Source of the DNA: Pleurocapsa sp. MO_226.B13
Lineage (GTDB): Bacteria; Cyanobacteriota; Cyanobacteriia; Cyanobacteriales; Xenococcaceae
Assembly (NCBI GenBank): GCA_030064795.1
Contig: JASJEI010000005.1
Span: forward strand, 1 to 64,000
Direction: 5' to 3'
DNA length: 64,000 bases
How positions within the stretch are numbered: position 1 is the first letter of the stretch; every line of letters begins with the position of its first letter. The notes beneath the pieces are model-generated. The model ran no database searches, was not told the origin of the DNA, and worked only from the letters and a program-made list of their open reading frames with translations. This document shows, one piece after another, positions 44,922 to 51,779 of this stretch. The translations under genes and the position numbers were made by a program.

Positions 44922-45821
44922 TCAGCGAGAAAATTTTTTGGGTGTGACACCTACTAGGCGTTTGAAGTGCTTGGTAAAATTACTTTGATCGGAAAATCCA
45001 ACTTGTAGACCAATGTCAGCAATGCTTAGTTTCGTTGTTGATAAAAGTAATAACTTGGCTCTATCTATGCGACATTTAATCAGATATTGATAGGGTGTAA
45101 TTCCTATAGATTTTTTAAATAGACGACAAAAATAAAAGCGACTCATGCCTATTTCAGTTGCCATGGCATCTAAGGATAAATCTTCAGCTGAGTGAGCCTG
45201 TATATAATCAATTGCTCGTCGTAGTTTGGATGAGGATAGTCCTCCAGTATATTCTGAAAACACCGATCGCTTGGTTGCGTAGTGTTTTACCAAATGGGCA
45301 GACAAAAATGTTAAGGCGGACTCGGCGTAAAAGCGACTGTTTGCAGGGTTGGTTTCTAATTCGGTTTTTAATGCTAAAACAATCTGATAGATTAAGGGGT
45401 CGTATCTCATAAAATGTACCATCAGTTCCAAATAATCTGGATCGATAGACTCATAAGCAGTTCGACACAGGTTTTGAGGATCGATATAACAATGGATAAA
45501 TTCTGATTCTCCCATCCAGCCCACCTGATAAGAGCGATCGGCAGGGTAGACGTAAATTAGATTGTCTTTTAACGCTGATGAAGTTGTCCAACTTTTTCCC
45601 TCGGAAATTACCTCTAATTTTGCTGGATTTCTGGCTGAGATACTAATAATATGCTGAGAAATATAATGTTCTGGTATTTGCCAAGAGGACTGACGATAAT
45701 GAGCCAGATGAATGCCATGCCAATTTGCTTTATAACTGGATAAAAGAGGAGCGCGAGCCAGAATCTGCGACATTGCTCCTTCCTGAAAAGGATTGACTTT
45801 TATGGGCTTTTCTGGTGACAT
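44922..45821 (-). CDS. AraC-family transcriptional regulator
   Basis: A DNA-binding protein of 299 residues. The C-terminal 100 residues are the two helix-turn-helix AraC domain (AIDYIQAHSAEDLSLDAMAT, EIGMSRFYFCRLFKKSIGIT, then IGLQVGFSDQSNFTKHFKRL). The N-terminal 190 residues lack an obvious cupin motif, although a small-molecule sensor role is expected. It is last in a minus-strand trio after an OpuAC-like protein and an SDR, which it may control. Confidence 0.92.
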   Translation of the reverse strand: MSPEKPIKVNPFQEGAMSQILARAPLLSSYKANWHGIHLAHYRQSSWQIPEHYISQHIISISARNPAKLEVISEGKSWTTSSALKDNLIYVYPADRSYQVGWMGESEFIHCYIDPQNLCRTAYESIDPDYLELMVHFMRYDPLIYQIVLALKTELETNPANSRFYAESALTFLSAHLVKHYATKRSVFSEYTGGLSSSKLRRAIDYIQAHSAEDLSLDAMATEIGMSRFYFCRLFKKSIGITPYQYLIKCRIDRAKLLLLSTTKLSIADIGLQVGFSDQSNFTKHFKRLVGVTPKKFSR

Positions 45822-45904: not shown

Positions 45905-46885
45905 CTACGAAGCAAATACCATCCAAGATTGAACCATTTCTGGATTGTTTGCCATCCATTGAGTTGCGGCTTCGCGAGGAGATAAACCCTCAACATTGGT
46001 GAGATAGTCCATCTCAGTGACAGCATCAACACCGAGAGAAATGCGATTGAGAGTATCCAGAGTCTTGCTTGGGGCGCGATCGCGGAAGTTTTGGGTCACG
46101 ACTAAAGAACAGCGATCGGGTTCGGGAAATACATTCAAAGGATCGTTTAAACGACGAATTTCATAAGCTTGATTGAGATATTGCGGTTGCCATAAGGGAA
46201 TAATTACCCCATTTTCTGCTTCTACTCCTTGCTCGAATGCACTTACCCAATCTTCTTCTGTCCCAGTGCGAAACTCATAACCAGCAGCTTCCAGGTTGTA
46301 GCGAGACATAATCTCTTGAGACAAACGAGTAATACCCGCGCCTGGACCAATTCCCTGAATCACTTGATTCATCTGCTCGGAGACTTCAGGACGAGTGAGA
46401 TCTTCAATAGATTGAATATCTTCAGGGAGATAGTTGGGAACACCCCAGAAAAAACCTGCATTTTCATAGAGAGGGTCTAGCTCTATTGCTTCTGTGCCGT
46501 ATTCTTCAAACAGGGGCTCGTGTCCAGACGGAAGCCATACAGCTACCAGCAGATCTAAATCTCCTTGACCGAGAATCGGAAAAATCTCAGCATGAGGCCC
46601 TTCAGTAATTTCTACCTGATGTCCTAATGATTCGAGAACATTCTGCATTACACCACCGACGACTCGATAAAAAGACAGTCCCACAACACCCATACGAACA
46701 GTTAAATCGTTAGAGGCAGTTTGTAATCGAGTAGAATTAGCGATCGCTTTGGTTTTTCCAATAGTTACGTTGAGTGCGGCAGATGTACCTGCTATAGCAG
46801 CAAATTTAAAAAACTGACGGCGACTAGCTTGGCTCAAAGAATTAATATAAGTGATTTGTGAATAGTTGTTACCCCAATTTTTCAT
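45905..46885 (-). CDS. Glycine-betaine-type ABC substrate-binding protein with Tat leader
   Basis: The protein of 326 residues has a twin-arginine leader (SQASRRQFFKFAAIAGTSAA) and then an OpuAC-type binding domain. Typical stretches are GVVGLSFYRVVGGVMQNVLE and LDLLVAVWLPSGHEPLFEEY, and EEDWVSAFEQGVEAENGVII. The aromatic and acidic residues seem to allow binding of a quaternary amine or a related cation, but the ligand is unknown. No permease or ATPase gene is nearby, so it is an orphan binding protein or works with one elsewhere. It lies 93 bases after the SDR gene on the same strand. Confidence 0.85.
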   Translation of the reverse strand: MKNWGNNYSQITYINSLSQASRRQFFKFAAIAGTSAALNVTIGKTKAIANSTRLQTASNDLTVRMGVVGLSFYRVVGGVMQNVLESLGHQVEITEGPHAEIFPILGQGDLDLLVAVWLPSGHEPLFEEYGTEAIELDPLYENAGFFWGVPNYLPEDIQSIEDLTRPEVSEQMNQVIQGIGPGAGITRLSQEIMSRYNLEAAGYEFRTGTEEDWVSAFEQGVEAENGVIIPLWQPQYLNQAYEIRRLNDPLNVFPEPDRCSLVVTQNFRDRAPSKTLDTLNRISLGVDAVTEMDYLTNVEGLSPREAATQWMANNPEMVQSWMVFAS

Positions 46886-48153: not shown

Positions 48154-49452
48154 ATGAAACTGCTCTTAAATTTAAAATTGCTATCAATAACGGCGATTAG
48201 TGCTGCTGGCTTAGTCATACTCGAATATGACGATCGCCCTGCCCTAAAGGATACGCCTTCGGCTAACAGCATGGCTTTGCTAGGCTTTTTTAGGTCAGAA
48301 TTCGCTGTAACAGTTCAATCTTCAGTTAGATCTAGCTTAACTTCCTACAGCCGAGTTAATCGAGATGCCGAAGCATTAGTCAATCTTGGTTCGAGGGTAG
48401 CGGGAACGCCAACTAGCGAAAAAGCACTTGCTTATTTAAATTCGGAATATCAAAAAGCAGGTTACAAAACTGAAGTTCAGACTTTCACCTATCCTAAATT
48501 TGAGGATCGAGGTTCTAATCTAGAGAGCGACGGCAATAGAGTTTCAGGTAGAGCTTTGAATGGTTCGCCTTCTGGTAGTCCCTGTGCTGCAATTGTAGTA
48601 GTTCCAAACTTGGGAAGAAAAGAGGATTTCCAACAGGTAAATGTAAAAGGCAAGATTGCCGTTGTCAGACGGGGTGAAATTCGTTTTAGCGATAAAGCTA
48701 GCAATGCGGAAGCAGCAGGTGCGGTGGGTTTGATAATAGTCAACAACGCAGAGGATAACTTTAGCGGAACTTTGGGTAAAAAAATAAATATTCCCGTTTT
48801 ATCTGTTTCGGGCAAACAAGGAAAATCTCTACTGCAAAATACCGACAATTCCCAACAAGCAACCCTAAAAGTCGATACAGTTCGTCGCCTCGTTACAGGA
48901 CGCAATTTGATTGCTCGTCAAGCAAATTCAACTCAGCCAAAAGCAATTATCGGCGGTCATTATGATTCGGTAGCGGGTTCTCCTGGAGCCAATGATAACG
49001 CTTCGGGTACGGCTGTAGTTCTCGAACTAGCTCGGAGACTAGCTGGAACACCACAAGCAGATCGAGTTTGGTTTGTTGCTTTTGATGGTGAAGAGGACGG
49101 TCTGCATGGCTCTAGGGCATTTGTAGACAATGCCACTCCTCAGTTTCTCTCACAGCTATCGGGAATGATTAACTTTGATATGGTAGGAATAAATAAAGAG
49201 TTGAGAGTTGGCGGAACGCCTTCACTAGCTACTCCGATCGAAAAAGATTATTCAAATTATTCTCTTTCTCAAATTGGAGCAATTGGCGGTAGCGACCACG
49301 TTCCCTTTGCTAATGCCAAAGTTCCCGTTCTTTTCTTTACGAGAGGATTAGACCCTAACTATCATACTCCGAAGGATCTAAAGGTGAATCCTCACTTGCT
49401 CGATGAAACTGTCGAAGTGGGTTTGGAAGTTACCAGACAGTTTCTAGAATGA
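48154..49452 (+). CDS. Exported M28-family zinc aminopeptidase with PA domain
   Basis: A secreted peptidase of 432 residues. The leader MKLLLNLKLLSITAISAAGL is hydrophobic. A PA domain (about 130-225, PCAAIVVVPNLGRKEDFQQV through EAAGAVGLIIVNNAED) is inserted before the M28 catalytic domain. Zinc-site motifs are GGHYDSVAGSPGANDNASGT, AFDGEEDGLHGS and MINFDMVG, and GGSDHVPFANAKVPVLFF supplies the last ligand. Between leader and mature part, 48242-48268 carries a dispersed DNA repeat (ALKDTPSANS). The gene ends about 210 bases before pqqA on the same strand. Confidence 0.9.
   Translation: MKLLLNLKLLSITAISAAGLVILEYDDRPALKDTPSANSMALLGFFRSEFAVTVQSSVRSSLTSYSRVNRDAEALVNLGSRVAGTPTSEKALAYLNSEYQKAGYKTEVQTFTYPKFEDRGSNLESDGNRVSGRALNGSPSGSPCAAIVVVPNLGRKEDFQQVNVKGKIAVVRRGEIRFSDKASNAEAAGAVGLIIVNNAEDNFSGTLGKKINIPVLSVSGKQGKSLLQNTDNSQQATLKVDTVRRLVTGRNLIARQANSTQPKAIIGGHYDSVAGSPGANDNASGTAVVLELARRLAGTPQADRVWFVAFDGEEDGLHGSRAFVDNATPQFLSQLSGMINFDMVGINKELRVGGTPSLATPIEKDYSNYSLSQIGAIGGSDHVPFANAKVPVLFFTRGLDPNYHTPKDLKVNPHLLDETVEVGLEVTRQFLE
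48242..48268. repeat. CCTAAAGGAT-type dispersed repeat inside the M28 gene
   Basis: CCCTAAAGGATACGCCTTCG then GCTAACA. The core CCTAAAGGAT is shared with 32601-32610 and 56451-56460. It is translated in frame as part of the region after the signal peptide. Confidence 0.7.
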
Positions 49453-49665
49453 AATTGGTAGATTGATGGTAAAAATTATTTAATCACTCTATTATCCCTT
49501 CTGGACTGGAATTTTATAGCAGCGATCGCTTTTCACAATGTCACAATGGCAAGGAGATTGCTAACATTTAACAAAAATGCGAAACAACTCTCAGTCTTCA
49601 ACTTGCCAAGGCTGAGATGGATTGATTTTCAGATTCAAGCATAGTTAATAATTAGGAGTAACGTC

Positions 49666-49857
49666 ATGGTAGATCGAGCAAATTATTTGGATTCTAGTAA
49701 AAAAGAAACCGATACTGCGAACAATAATAGAGATAAAAACGCGACGGATACCGCTCTTTCTAATACAGGAAAACCGCTCGCGGTTTGGGAGTCGCCAGAA
49801 TTTGAAGAATTCGATCTTTGTATGGAAGTAACCGCTTACGTCCATCAGTGGCAGTGA
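49666..49857 (+). CDS. pqqA: PqqA-like pyrroloquinoline quinone precursor peptide
   Basis: A 63-residue peptide whose C-terminus (WESPEFEEFDLCMEVTAYVH from Trp41) fits the PqqA core pattern. In PqqA the Glu and Tyr four apart, here Glu54 and Tyr58 in MEVTAY, are cross-linked and become PQQ. Known PqqA peptides are about 22-30 residues, so this one has an extra polar N-terminus of some 40 residues (MVDRANYLDSSKKETDTANN). AGGAG (49654-49658) lies seven bases before the ATG. The stop TGA overlaps the pqqB ATG by one base (TGATG), giving translational coupling. The position directly before pqqB strongly supports the identification. Confidence 0.88.
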   Translation: MVDRANYLDSSKKETDTANNNRDKNATDTALSNTGKPLAVWESPEFEEFDLCMEVTAYVHQWQ

Positions 49858-50771
49858 TGCAGATACGTATTCTCGGTTCGGCAGCAGGAGGCGGATTTCC
49901 TCAATGGAACTGTAATTGCGCTGGTTGTCAGGCTGCACGTGGAAGCAATACGGGAGTACGCTGGCGTACTCAATCGTCTTTGGCGGTTCGAGGCAGTTCG
50001 GGTAATTGGTTTTTGGTTAACGCCTCCCCTGACGTGCGCCAACAACTGGAACGGCTGCGGGAGGAAACACCTACTTCTATTCGCTCTAGTCCTATTGCCG
50101 GGGTGCTATTGAGTGATGCCGAGATCGACCATACCGCAGGATTGACCATCTTAAGGGAATCGAGCAAACCGCTGCAAATTTACGGCACAGATACCGTAAA
50201 ACGGGCATTAACCGAGGGTTTTTCTTTACTGCGGGTGCTTAAGGATTATTGCGGGATCGAATGGTGGGCGATCGAACCAGGCTCATTAATAAATTTTGGC
50301 AGTCAAGAGGAGTCTAGCCTAGAAGTAGAAGCCTTTTCACTGATTGGTACGCCACCTAAGTATATGCGTTCTCAAGCTTCATCTGAGGGTATTTGGGTAG
50401 TCGGGTTTACCTTCCGCGATCGCGCTAGTGGTGGGGTTGCTACTTATGCACCAGCTTTAGCCGAACTAACCCCCTCAATCATCAACAGGTTTGAAACGAG
50501 TGACTGTATTTTGGTAGATGGTACTTTTTGGCAGAATGACGAACTAGTAAAACTGGGAATGTCAAACCGTACCGCTTTATCAATGGGACACTTACCGCTT
50601 TGGGGAGAGAATGGTAGCTTGAACCGTCTATCTCAACTCTCCCCCTCGCGCAAAATTTTTACTCATATCAATAATACTAATCCGATTCTGATCGAGCATT
50701 CGCCAGAACGACAAATAGTTGAAGTAGCAGGGATGGAAGTTGGTTATGACGGATTGACTATCGAACTGTAG
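49857..50771 (+). CDS. pqqB: PQQ biosynthesis protein PqqB
   Basis: A metallo-beta-lactamase-fold protein of 304 residues, the normal PqqB length. PqqB is reported to hydroxylate the tyrosine of the excised precursor in PQQ synthesis. The start MQIRILGSAAGGGFPQWNCN then CAGCQAARGSN is diagnostic, with the CxCxxC metal site. The metal-fold motif is SDAEIDHTAGL, and FTHINNTNPIL is a typical late His motif. An upstream in-frame ATG at 49818 would add 13 residues but overlaps pqqA; the ATG at 49857 aligns with known starts. No pqqC, pqqD or pqqE gene is found in the window. Confidence 0.93.
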   Translation: MQIRILGSAAGGGFPQWNCNCAGCQAARGSNTGVRWRTQSSLAVRGSSGNWFLVNASPDVRQQLERLREETPTSIRSSPIAGVLLSDAEIDHTAGLTILRESSKPLQIYGTDTVKRALTEGFSLLRVLKDYCGIEWWAIEPGSLINFGSQEESSLEVEAFSLIGTPPKYMRSQASSEGIWVVGFTFRDRASGGVATYAPALAELTPSIINRFETSDCILVDGTFWQNDELVKLGMSNRTALSMGHLPLWGENGSLNRLSQLSPSRKIFTHINNTNPILIEHSPERQIVEVAGMEVGYDGLTIEL

Positions 50772-50786
50772 CTGTGAGCTACTCTC

Positions 50787-51779
50787 TCAGCTAACCTCTG
50801 CTAAGGCAGCCTTAATAGTCGAGGCATTTGCCCCAGGCAAATAAGCTTGTTGACTGATATAGCGTTTCCAGGCTTTAGTTCCTGGTTGTTCGGCGAATAG
50901 CTGTAGCATATGACGGCTAATAGAATTAAGCCTGATGCCTTTGCCGATCCAGTATTCAATGTAGGGTAGCATGGCTTCTACGATCTGATGGCGAGTTGGA
51001 GGGGTAACATCTTCACCATAGAGATCTCGGTCTATACTAGCAAAAAGATAAGGGCGATCGTAAGCAGCACGCCCAATCATTACTCCATCTACGAATTCAA
51101 GATGGGTATTAACCTGCTGAAGACTAGTAATACCGCCATTGATTTCGATAAATAGATCGGGAAAATCTTCCTTGAGACGATAGACATCTTGGTAACGTAA
51201 CGGCGGGACGTTGCGGTTTTCTTTAGGGCTTAAGCCTTTTAACCAAGCCTTGCGGGCATGGACGGTAAAATTGGTACAGCCAGCTTCAGAGACAATCCGT
51301 ACGAAGTTTGCCATGTCTTCATAGCGATCGCACTCGTCCACCCCGATCCGATGCTTGACTGTCACGGGGATCTCTACAACCCGTTTCATCGCCTCTACCG
51401 CAGCAGCTACTAATTCTGGTTGCGTCATCAAACAAGCACCAAAATTACCACTTTGAACCCTGGGACTGGGGCAACCAATGTTTAAATTGATGGCATCATA
51501 ACCCCAATTCGCGCCAATTTTGGCACATTCAGCCAATTGTCTTGGCTCGTCTCCTCCTATCTGTAGTACCAAAGGTTTTTCTGCCTCAGAGAAGTCTAAT
51601 AGCTTGGAGCGATCGCCATGCATAATTGCCTGACTGGTAATCATCTCCGTGTACAGTAAAGTCCGACGAGTAATTTGTCGCATAAAGTAGCGATAATGGC
51701 GATCGGTGCGATCCATCATCGGGGCAATACTCAAAGGATTATCGATTTTGATTTGGGGGTTAGTGGAATTGCTATTCAC
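50787..51779 (-). CDS. dusA: tRNA-dihydrouridine(20/20a) synthase
   Basis: A flavoenzyme of 330 residues that reduces uridine 20 in the tRNA D-loop. The TIM-barrel start is PLSIAPMMDRTDRHYRYFMR. The FMN-binding and catalytic motifs are QIGGDEPRQLAECAKIGANW, NIGCPSPRVQSGNFGACLMT with the active-site Cys, and TVKHRIGVDECDRY. DGVMIGRAAYDRPYLF follows. The DusA type is suggested by the APMMDRTDRHYR start. The gene converges on pqqB with only 15 bases between stops. Confidence 0.94.
   Translation of the reverse strand: MNSNSTNPQIKIDNPLSIAPMMDRTDRHYRYFMRQITRRTLLYTEMITSQAIMHGDRSKLLDFSEAEKPLVLQIGGDEPRQLAECAKIGANWGYDAINLNIGCPSPRVQSGNFGACLMTQPELVAAAVEAMKRVVEIPVTVKHRIGVDECDRYEDMANFVRIVSEAGCTNFTVHARKAWLKGLSPKENRNVPPLRYQDVYRLKEDFPDLFIEINGGITSLQQVNTHLEFVDGVMIGRAAYDRPYLFASIDRDLYGEDVTPPTRHQIVEAMLPYIEYWIGKGIRLNSISRHMLQLFAEQPGTKAWKRYISQQAYLPGANASTIKAALAEVS

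Follow-up and report, generated by a model that had tools for sequence, protein, structure and literature searches.

PQQ synthesis is usually regarded as a proteobacterial trait. The locus considered here lies in a 64,000-nucleotide stretch of DNA from the cyanobacterium Pleurocapsa sp. MO_226.B13 (the window), in which a pqqA gene and a pqqB gene stand together without the other genes of the pathway. This arrangement raises the question of whether the two genes still serve PQQ synthesis, or whether they are the remains of a lost pathway or components of a different one.

The pqqA-pqqB pair and its flanking sequence

The coordinates, reading frames and starts given for the two genes by the initial annotation proved correct (Table 1), as did the one-base overlap within TGATG at their junction, and the pqqA ATG is preceded by AGGAG. 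The PqqA peptide scored 31.5 bits against PF08042 (cut-off 21.1; residues 41-58) and 24.3 bits against TIGR02107 (cut-off 20; residues 41-59), with Glu54 and Tyr58 in the core and 40 residues ahead of Trp41, as had been described. PqqB scored 374.9 bits against TIGR02108 (cut-off 245), with residues 2-304 aligned to model positions 1-298, and matched solved PqqB structures in the PDB over its full length (residues 1-304), so that its description as a full-length PqqB is likewise borne out. Three other MBL models gave 27.9-41 bits, far under their own cut-offs; family models and solved structures thus place the protein closer to PqqB than to other metallo-hydrolases and not in an unrelated metallo-hydrolase family, an outcome that would have counted against the initial annotation. 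The PqqB tree described below consists of PqqB rows only, and hence offers no comparison with other metallo-hydrolases.

Table 1. Features of the pqqA-pqqB locus, with positions numbered from the first base of the window
Feature	Position	Strand	Description
M28-family peptidase with PA domain	48154..49452	+	Upstream neighbour; PF04389, 120.5 bits
SDH fossil (GSDH-family sugar dehydrogenase)	49488..49559, outer limits approximate	+	About codons 326-347 of 407; 8-base tandem duplication breaks the frame
pqqA	49666..49857	+	63-aa PQQ precursor peptide; residues 1-36 a variable polar extension, remainder a conserved core with E54-V-T-A-Y58
pqqB	49857..50771	+	304-aa PqqB from ATG; start codon shares one base with the pqqA stop
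pqqB/dusA gap	50769..50793	.	Small hairpin between convergent stops, possible shared terminator, no T-run
dusA	50787..51779	-	Convergent neighbour where most relatives have pqqC; NF008774, 501.7 bits (cut-off 269)

Conservation of the peptide in relatives, the lack of which would have counted against the initial annotation, was found in 53 homologues of 59-64 aa in public data. Fourteen positions, including W41 and the E54 and Y58 of the E-x3-Y motif near the C-terminus, are invariant among them; the set was gathered by likeness to the window query, and remoter cyanobacterial PqqA peptides differ at some of these positions. Chance is ruled out as an explanation of the peptide by this degree of conservation, and the pair are genuine members of the PqqA and PqqB families. 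Annotation of cyanobacterial PqqA and PqqB is not new, as public records already use both names.

The absence of PqqC, PqqD and PqqE from the window was confirmed by tblastn with the G412 proteins (taken from L104) as queries, which gave no significant match in the 64 kb at E values up to 10, the single match being to PqqC with an E value of 0.51. The next gene is indeed dusA on the opposite strand, its product scoring above the NF008774 cut-off, with 15 bases separating the pqqB stop (to 50771) from the convergent dusA stop (from 50787). The hairpin in this gap (-10.9 kcal/mol, z -2.85; 1/200 shuffles equally good) was not listed by the terminator scan, which returned two terminator-like sites, neither of them in the gap, versus 1.2 (sd 1.0) in shuffles. 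The promoter scan returned two promoter-like sites versus 2.4 in shuffles. The order of dusA, a YCII-like gene and a GDSL-like gene is common to the window, G407 and G415. On the 3' side of dusA in G407 (L183:1913-5764) are ORFs named by eye as hydrogenase-like (hox-type).

The M28-family peptidase upstream was considered as the missing PqqA peptidase, an assignment left unsupported by the finding of no homologue among the ORFs beside the operons of relatives. When 27 family genomes were searched with this peptidase at E<=1e-30, no match was obtained, an empty answer that shows nothing alone. Further upstream, positions 45905-46885 (minus strand) encode an ABC substrate-binding protein of the choline/glycine-betaine type (72.6 bits against TIGR03414, under its cut-off of 379), beside which lies a gene judged by eye to encode an AraC-type regulator (44922-45821).

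The pqq operon and its sugar dehydrogenase in cyanobacteria

A single scan of genome contigs, from which the best 80 loci were taken, was supplemented by searches of order, family and class, which together yielded 23 pqqB-bearing cyanobacterial genomes (L004 and L137 represent the same locus, counted once). The nearest PqqB loci among the best 80 were those of Pleurocapsa MO_192.B19 (80%, partial), Richelia UBA3308 (71%), Nostoc ATCC 43529 (65%), a MAG labelled Gracilibacteria (58%) and Mastigocoleus testarum (53%). A single stretch carries pqqB-C-D-E in 17 of the 23 genomes; among the other six, the locus is cut by contig ends in G004, G634 and G685, divided in G520 and G530, and has a truncated pqqB in G711. 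Division of the pqq genes in Richelia UBA3308 was also considered and rejected, pqqB and pqqCDE sharing one contig of 47065 bases. A PqqE match over the cut-off was present in 21/23 genomes, the exceptions being G685, in which pqqB runs off the contig end, and G711; only matches over the cut-off were counted, default-threshold searches giving sub-cut-off matches in 14/14 control genomes. Of the cyanobacterial genomes encoding a full-length PqqB, all 19 examined for PqqE were positive.

Two of these loci have further features. In G711 (L144:10158-10820), pqqA and the sugar dehydrogenase (SDH) gene are present, homology in pqqB stops after residue 192, well inside the contig, and PqqE is missing; either the operon is decaying or the assembly is at fault. 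In G549 (L136:7788-9167, minus strand), pqqD and pqqE are apparently fused in one ORF of 459 aa.

The view of the initial annotation that a cyanobacterial locus is unexpected is a fair one. PqqB was found in 19/388 sampled genomes of the order, with one match in each, and PqqE in 2/388 genomes of the class sample, one of which is the centre genome. In the family of the Pleurocapsa relative, PqqB (one match each) and PqqE were found in the same 6/27 genomes and neither was found in the other 21. This distribution suggests that a scattered minority of cyanobacteria may be able to make their own PQQ. Among open-licence PubMed Central titles and abstract openings, none was found to deal with a pqq operon of cyanobacteria or with an extended PqqA, and a study mapping PQQ import and synthesis does not use the word 'cyanobacteria' in its main text (PMC12124388).

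A GSDH-type SDH gene adjoins pqqA in 15 of the 23 genomes with pqqB, being located directly upstream of pqqA in six and between pqqA and pqqB in nine. The SDH of G412 is a complete member of PF07995 (440.5 bits, cut-off 25) whose nearest structure is 2g8s, an E. coli aldose sugar dehydrogenase. It thereby resembles the PQQ-dependent aldose sugar dehydrogenase/sGDH proteins (PF07995; 2g8s, 1cq1) but differs in scoring 148.6 bits against TIGR03606, below the cut-off of 434.55, whereas the window holds only a broken fragment. Within the order, GSDH-type dehydrogenases were found in 152/388 genomes at E<=1e-20, weaker paralogues included. Such genes accompany PqqB in 16/19 genomes, versus 136/369 genomes without PqqB (Fisher p 5e-5), a value that is indicative only, as related genomes are non-independent, the threshold admits weaker paralogues and the same 388 genomes are assumed in both searches. 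The 136 genomes with a dehydrogenase and without PqqB are possibly those of PQQ scavengers, and since the dehydrogenase is commoner than PqqB, PQQ may be exchanged within mats. In a study of Microcoleus mats, Proteobacteria were supposed to be the source of PQQ (PMC7367855).

The fragment of SDH upstream of pqqA in the window (Table 1) does not appear in the initial annotation. In blastn searches, positions 49497-49543 matched the interior of the SDH gene, at the same place, in L127, L128, L129, L130, L137 and L198 (49496-49534 for L130), and the fragment is thereby homologous to PF07995 genes at the same operon position in six loci; in the relatives that share this layout, SDH precedes pqqA in the same orientation. 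The best ungapped match with the L127 SDH covers 41/47 bases; when the sequence separating the M28 peptidase gene from pqqA was dinucleotide-shuffled 500 times, the highest value obtained was 30/47. With the SDH fossil upstream and no pqqC, pqqD or pqqE beyond pqqB, the locus descends from an SDH-pqqA-pqqB arrangement in which most of SDH has been lost.

Extended PqqA peptides

Description of the window PqqA as over-long holds against non-cyanobacterial peptides, 73 of which span 23-28 aa; it does not hold as a peculiarity of this locus, since length of this kind is usual in cyanobacteria (21/22 loci), where PqqA peptides are of 52-64 aa. The average length of PqqA is given as 23 aa in one study (PMC3023750). 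The window peptide, at 63 aa, departs from this typical, non-defining length, and the family models cover its core only. A short PqqA from an internal start was considered and rejected: codons 1 and 8 are the only ATG, GTG or TTG codons before Trp41, so that in-frame starts yield either 63 or 56 aa.

An ATG backed by a Shine-Dalgarno motif and giving a peptide of <=30 aa is likewise absent from 21 of the 22 cyanobacterial pqqA loci counted. The sole exception, L136, has another ATG, preceded by GGAGG, that would yield 63 aa. Any start at all giving <=30 aa was found in 3/22 loci, and in L002, L005 and L128 (3/22) no ATG is preceded by the Shine-Dalgarno motifs used. Conversely, all 73 non-cyanobacterial peptides (from 69 of 75 loci) have a Shine-Dalgarno-backed ATG giving 23-28 aa. 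These counts exclude two (L133 and L143) of the 24 cyanobacterial loci and 6 of the 75 others, in which no peptide passed the motif filter.

The two parts of the peptide differ in their degree of conservation, the mean frequency of the top residue being 0.90 in the core versus 0.54 in the first 36 columns, and the extension is rich in N, S, T, K and D. Comparison with L127, L129 and L130 gave dN values of 0.155-0.218 for the extension (dS 0.730-1.027; 32-34 codons) and of 0.000-0.112 for the core, indicating that the extension is under weaker constraint; against G412, which has the whole operon, the core is unchanged (dN 0.000 over 29 codons). The pqqA core is under purifying selection. PqqD is reported to bind PqqA at its N-terminal leader (PMC10906245), which makes an extended leader plausible, and the extension may have such a role. 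It represents a natural variant with which to test how PqqD and PqqE read their substrate.

Compared with the proteobacterial pqqABCDE(F) system, the E-x3-Y core of PqqA and the full-length PqqB of the window are alike, as is the PqqC-D-E order of its relatives, with A and B of the window and C, D and E of G412 all scoring above curated cut-offs. The differences lie in the length of cyanobacterial PqqA, in the frequent presence of SDH beside pqqA and, in the window, in a pair that stands without pqqCDE. The pqq genes of Actinomycetota (e.g. Solirubrobacter) are alike in having a PqqB next to the cyanobacterial group and, in L006, a core of D-L-C-C-E-V-T-T-Y, but differ in having a PqqA of 24 aa with its own ATG and Shine-Dalgarno sequence.

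Retention, decay or relocation of the pqq genes

Values of dN/dS for pqqB between the window and eight relatives were 0.05-0.17, the lowest with saturated dS, and among those eight relatives 0.08-0.23 where defined (four pairs undefined); pqqB is under purifying selection. Relatives of PqqB 99% and 97% identical lie on contigs of 6435 and 17672 bases, respectively, and relatives of DusA with the same identities lie on contigs of the same two sizes; PqqA is likewise recorded on a contig of 6435 bases. To judge from these equal sizes, as opposed to any reading of the contigs themselves, the pqqB-dusA neighbourhood seems to be present in two further assemblies. PqqB is full length in both strains, with 3 and 8 changes in 304 residues, alongside 2 and 10 in 330 for DusA. 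An unused pair would not be expected to appear so constrained beside an SDH gene that is far decayed.

Of the 95 PqqB rows in a maximum-likelihood tree, the 20 from cyanobacteria formed one group (support 98/96) next to five actinobacterial rows; the tree is rooted at the midpoint and its rows are the best matches listed, so that other phyla may be missing. The partial pqqB genes of L004, L137, L142, L143 and L144 were left out. The window protein groups with those of G412 and G411 (94/92, just under the support mark; long branches were warned of among other rows), and its end branch of 0.14 compares with a median of 0.11 for all rows. Locus L003, titled Candidatus Gracilibacteria, has a pqqB within the cyanobacterial group and its genome was returned in the cyanobacterial order; from this placement the record is probably mislabelled.

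Division of the pqq genes between two loci is seen in G530 and G520, close relatives of G557, which has a whole operon (loci L131, L132, L133, L195 and L196 for the three genomes). In G530, A-B-C-D occupy the place syntenic with G557, and E is found on a different contig, preceded by the decayed beginning of a pqqA gene (70.6% over 279 positions). In G520, the syntenic place holds B-C and, after them, 47 bases from the end of pqqE, and A-D-E lie some 0.9 Mb away. Each genome has one PqqB match, one PqqE match and one intact PqqA. The second loci of the two genomes share near-identical limits (9012/9023 and 12634/12635 of L132), and some kb upstream the two have a sequence of 1226 bases in common, at 94%. 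A single duplication, after which the two genomes underwent complementary but differing losses, would account for both divisions. The history of these operons is not simple, as the B-C segment of G520 is only 83.9% identical to that of G557, with flanks at 92.5-96.4%, and the moved E of G530 is at 85.9%. A palindromic repeat of about 30 bases between pqqA and pqqB in G557 (L132:9464-9493) recurs in related loci; it sits at a breakpoint of the divided operons and may mediate rearrangements.

By analogy, the AB pair of the window could be one half of such a division. It seems likely that the pair was retained from an SDH-pqqABCDE operon and still takes part in PQQ synthesis, with the other genes elsewhere. 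From the existence of two cyanobacteria with pqq genes at two loci we infer that pqqC, pqqD and pqqE persist elsewhere in the same genome, and that PQQ is made. The initial annotation had offered two alternatives, namely other genes elsewhere in the genome or a modified or reduced pathway with a different Glu-Tyr product, and the first is favoured by these two genomes and by the presence of PqqE in 21/23. PqqA would then be made with a polar leader some 36 residues long, its Glu54 and Tyr58 would be cross-linked by PqqD and PqqE, and a peptidase would free the cross-linked Glu-Tyr pair; PqqB, in the role of iron-dependent hydroxylase predicted from the known pathway, would hydroxylate the freed pair, and PqqC would complete PQQ for use by a quinoprotein, a sugar dehydrogenase for example. 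These assignments of function follow the known PQQ pathway as reported in PMC10906245. Against retained function, G407, the nearest whole genome by DusA (88%), has no match to PqqB or PqqE, operon decay does occur (G711, with PqqE missing also in G685), and loss of SDH removes a local candidate user of PQQ.

These same observations bear on the other readings, which are not mutually exclusive, the likelihoods assigned to all of them summing to slightly above unity. That the lineage has lost PQQ synthesis, with pqqAB simply the last genes to decay and without present function, is unlikely but deserves the most weight among them: SDH has already been reduced to a fragment, the window contains no pqqCDE, the operon of G711 appears to be decaying and 21/27 family genomes have neither PqqB nor PqqE. 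Against such a relic stand two intact and constrained frames, and a PqqB that is full length in two further strains and has accumulated about as many changes as DusA. Less probable again is a partial second copy, in which a segment beginning midway through SDH and ending with pqqB was copied beside dusA and a whole operon lies elsewhere in the genome. The segment ends do look arbitrary, falling inside SDH and just past the pqqB stop, and G520 and G530 suggest that pqq operons have been duplicated in cyanobacteria; a redundant copy would nonetheless be expected to decay, whereas the window copy is constrained, and PqqB gave a single match in each of the 19 order and six family genomes.

Little credence is given to a lineage lacking PqqE, PqqD and PqqC in which the extended PqqA and PqqB are selected as a substrate-enzyme pair for a non-PQQ Glu-Tyr product, the intermediate being supplied by, or the maturase borrowed from, another pathway, for example. 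Slightly more doubtful still is a modified pathway in which PqqA and PqqB work with other maturases towards a different Glu-Tyr product; the only point in its favour is that the window holds no PqqC, PqqD or PqqE, and against it stand the identity of the PqqA core to that of G412, with its whole operon, and the finding of PqqE in every tested cyanobacterial genome with full-length PqqB. Least probable of all is an artefactual pqqB-dusA junction in a chimeric assembly, since, although the window DusA is on a 69902-base contig whose source is probably a draft or metagenome assembly and the upstream M28 neighbour has no match in the family, PqqB and DusA occur on equal-sized contigs elsewhere, PqqA is likewise recorded on a contig of the smaller size, and dusA and the next two genes keep their order in G407 and G415.
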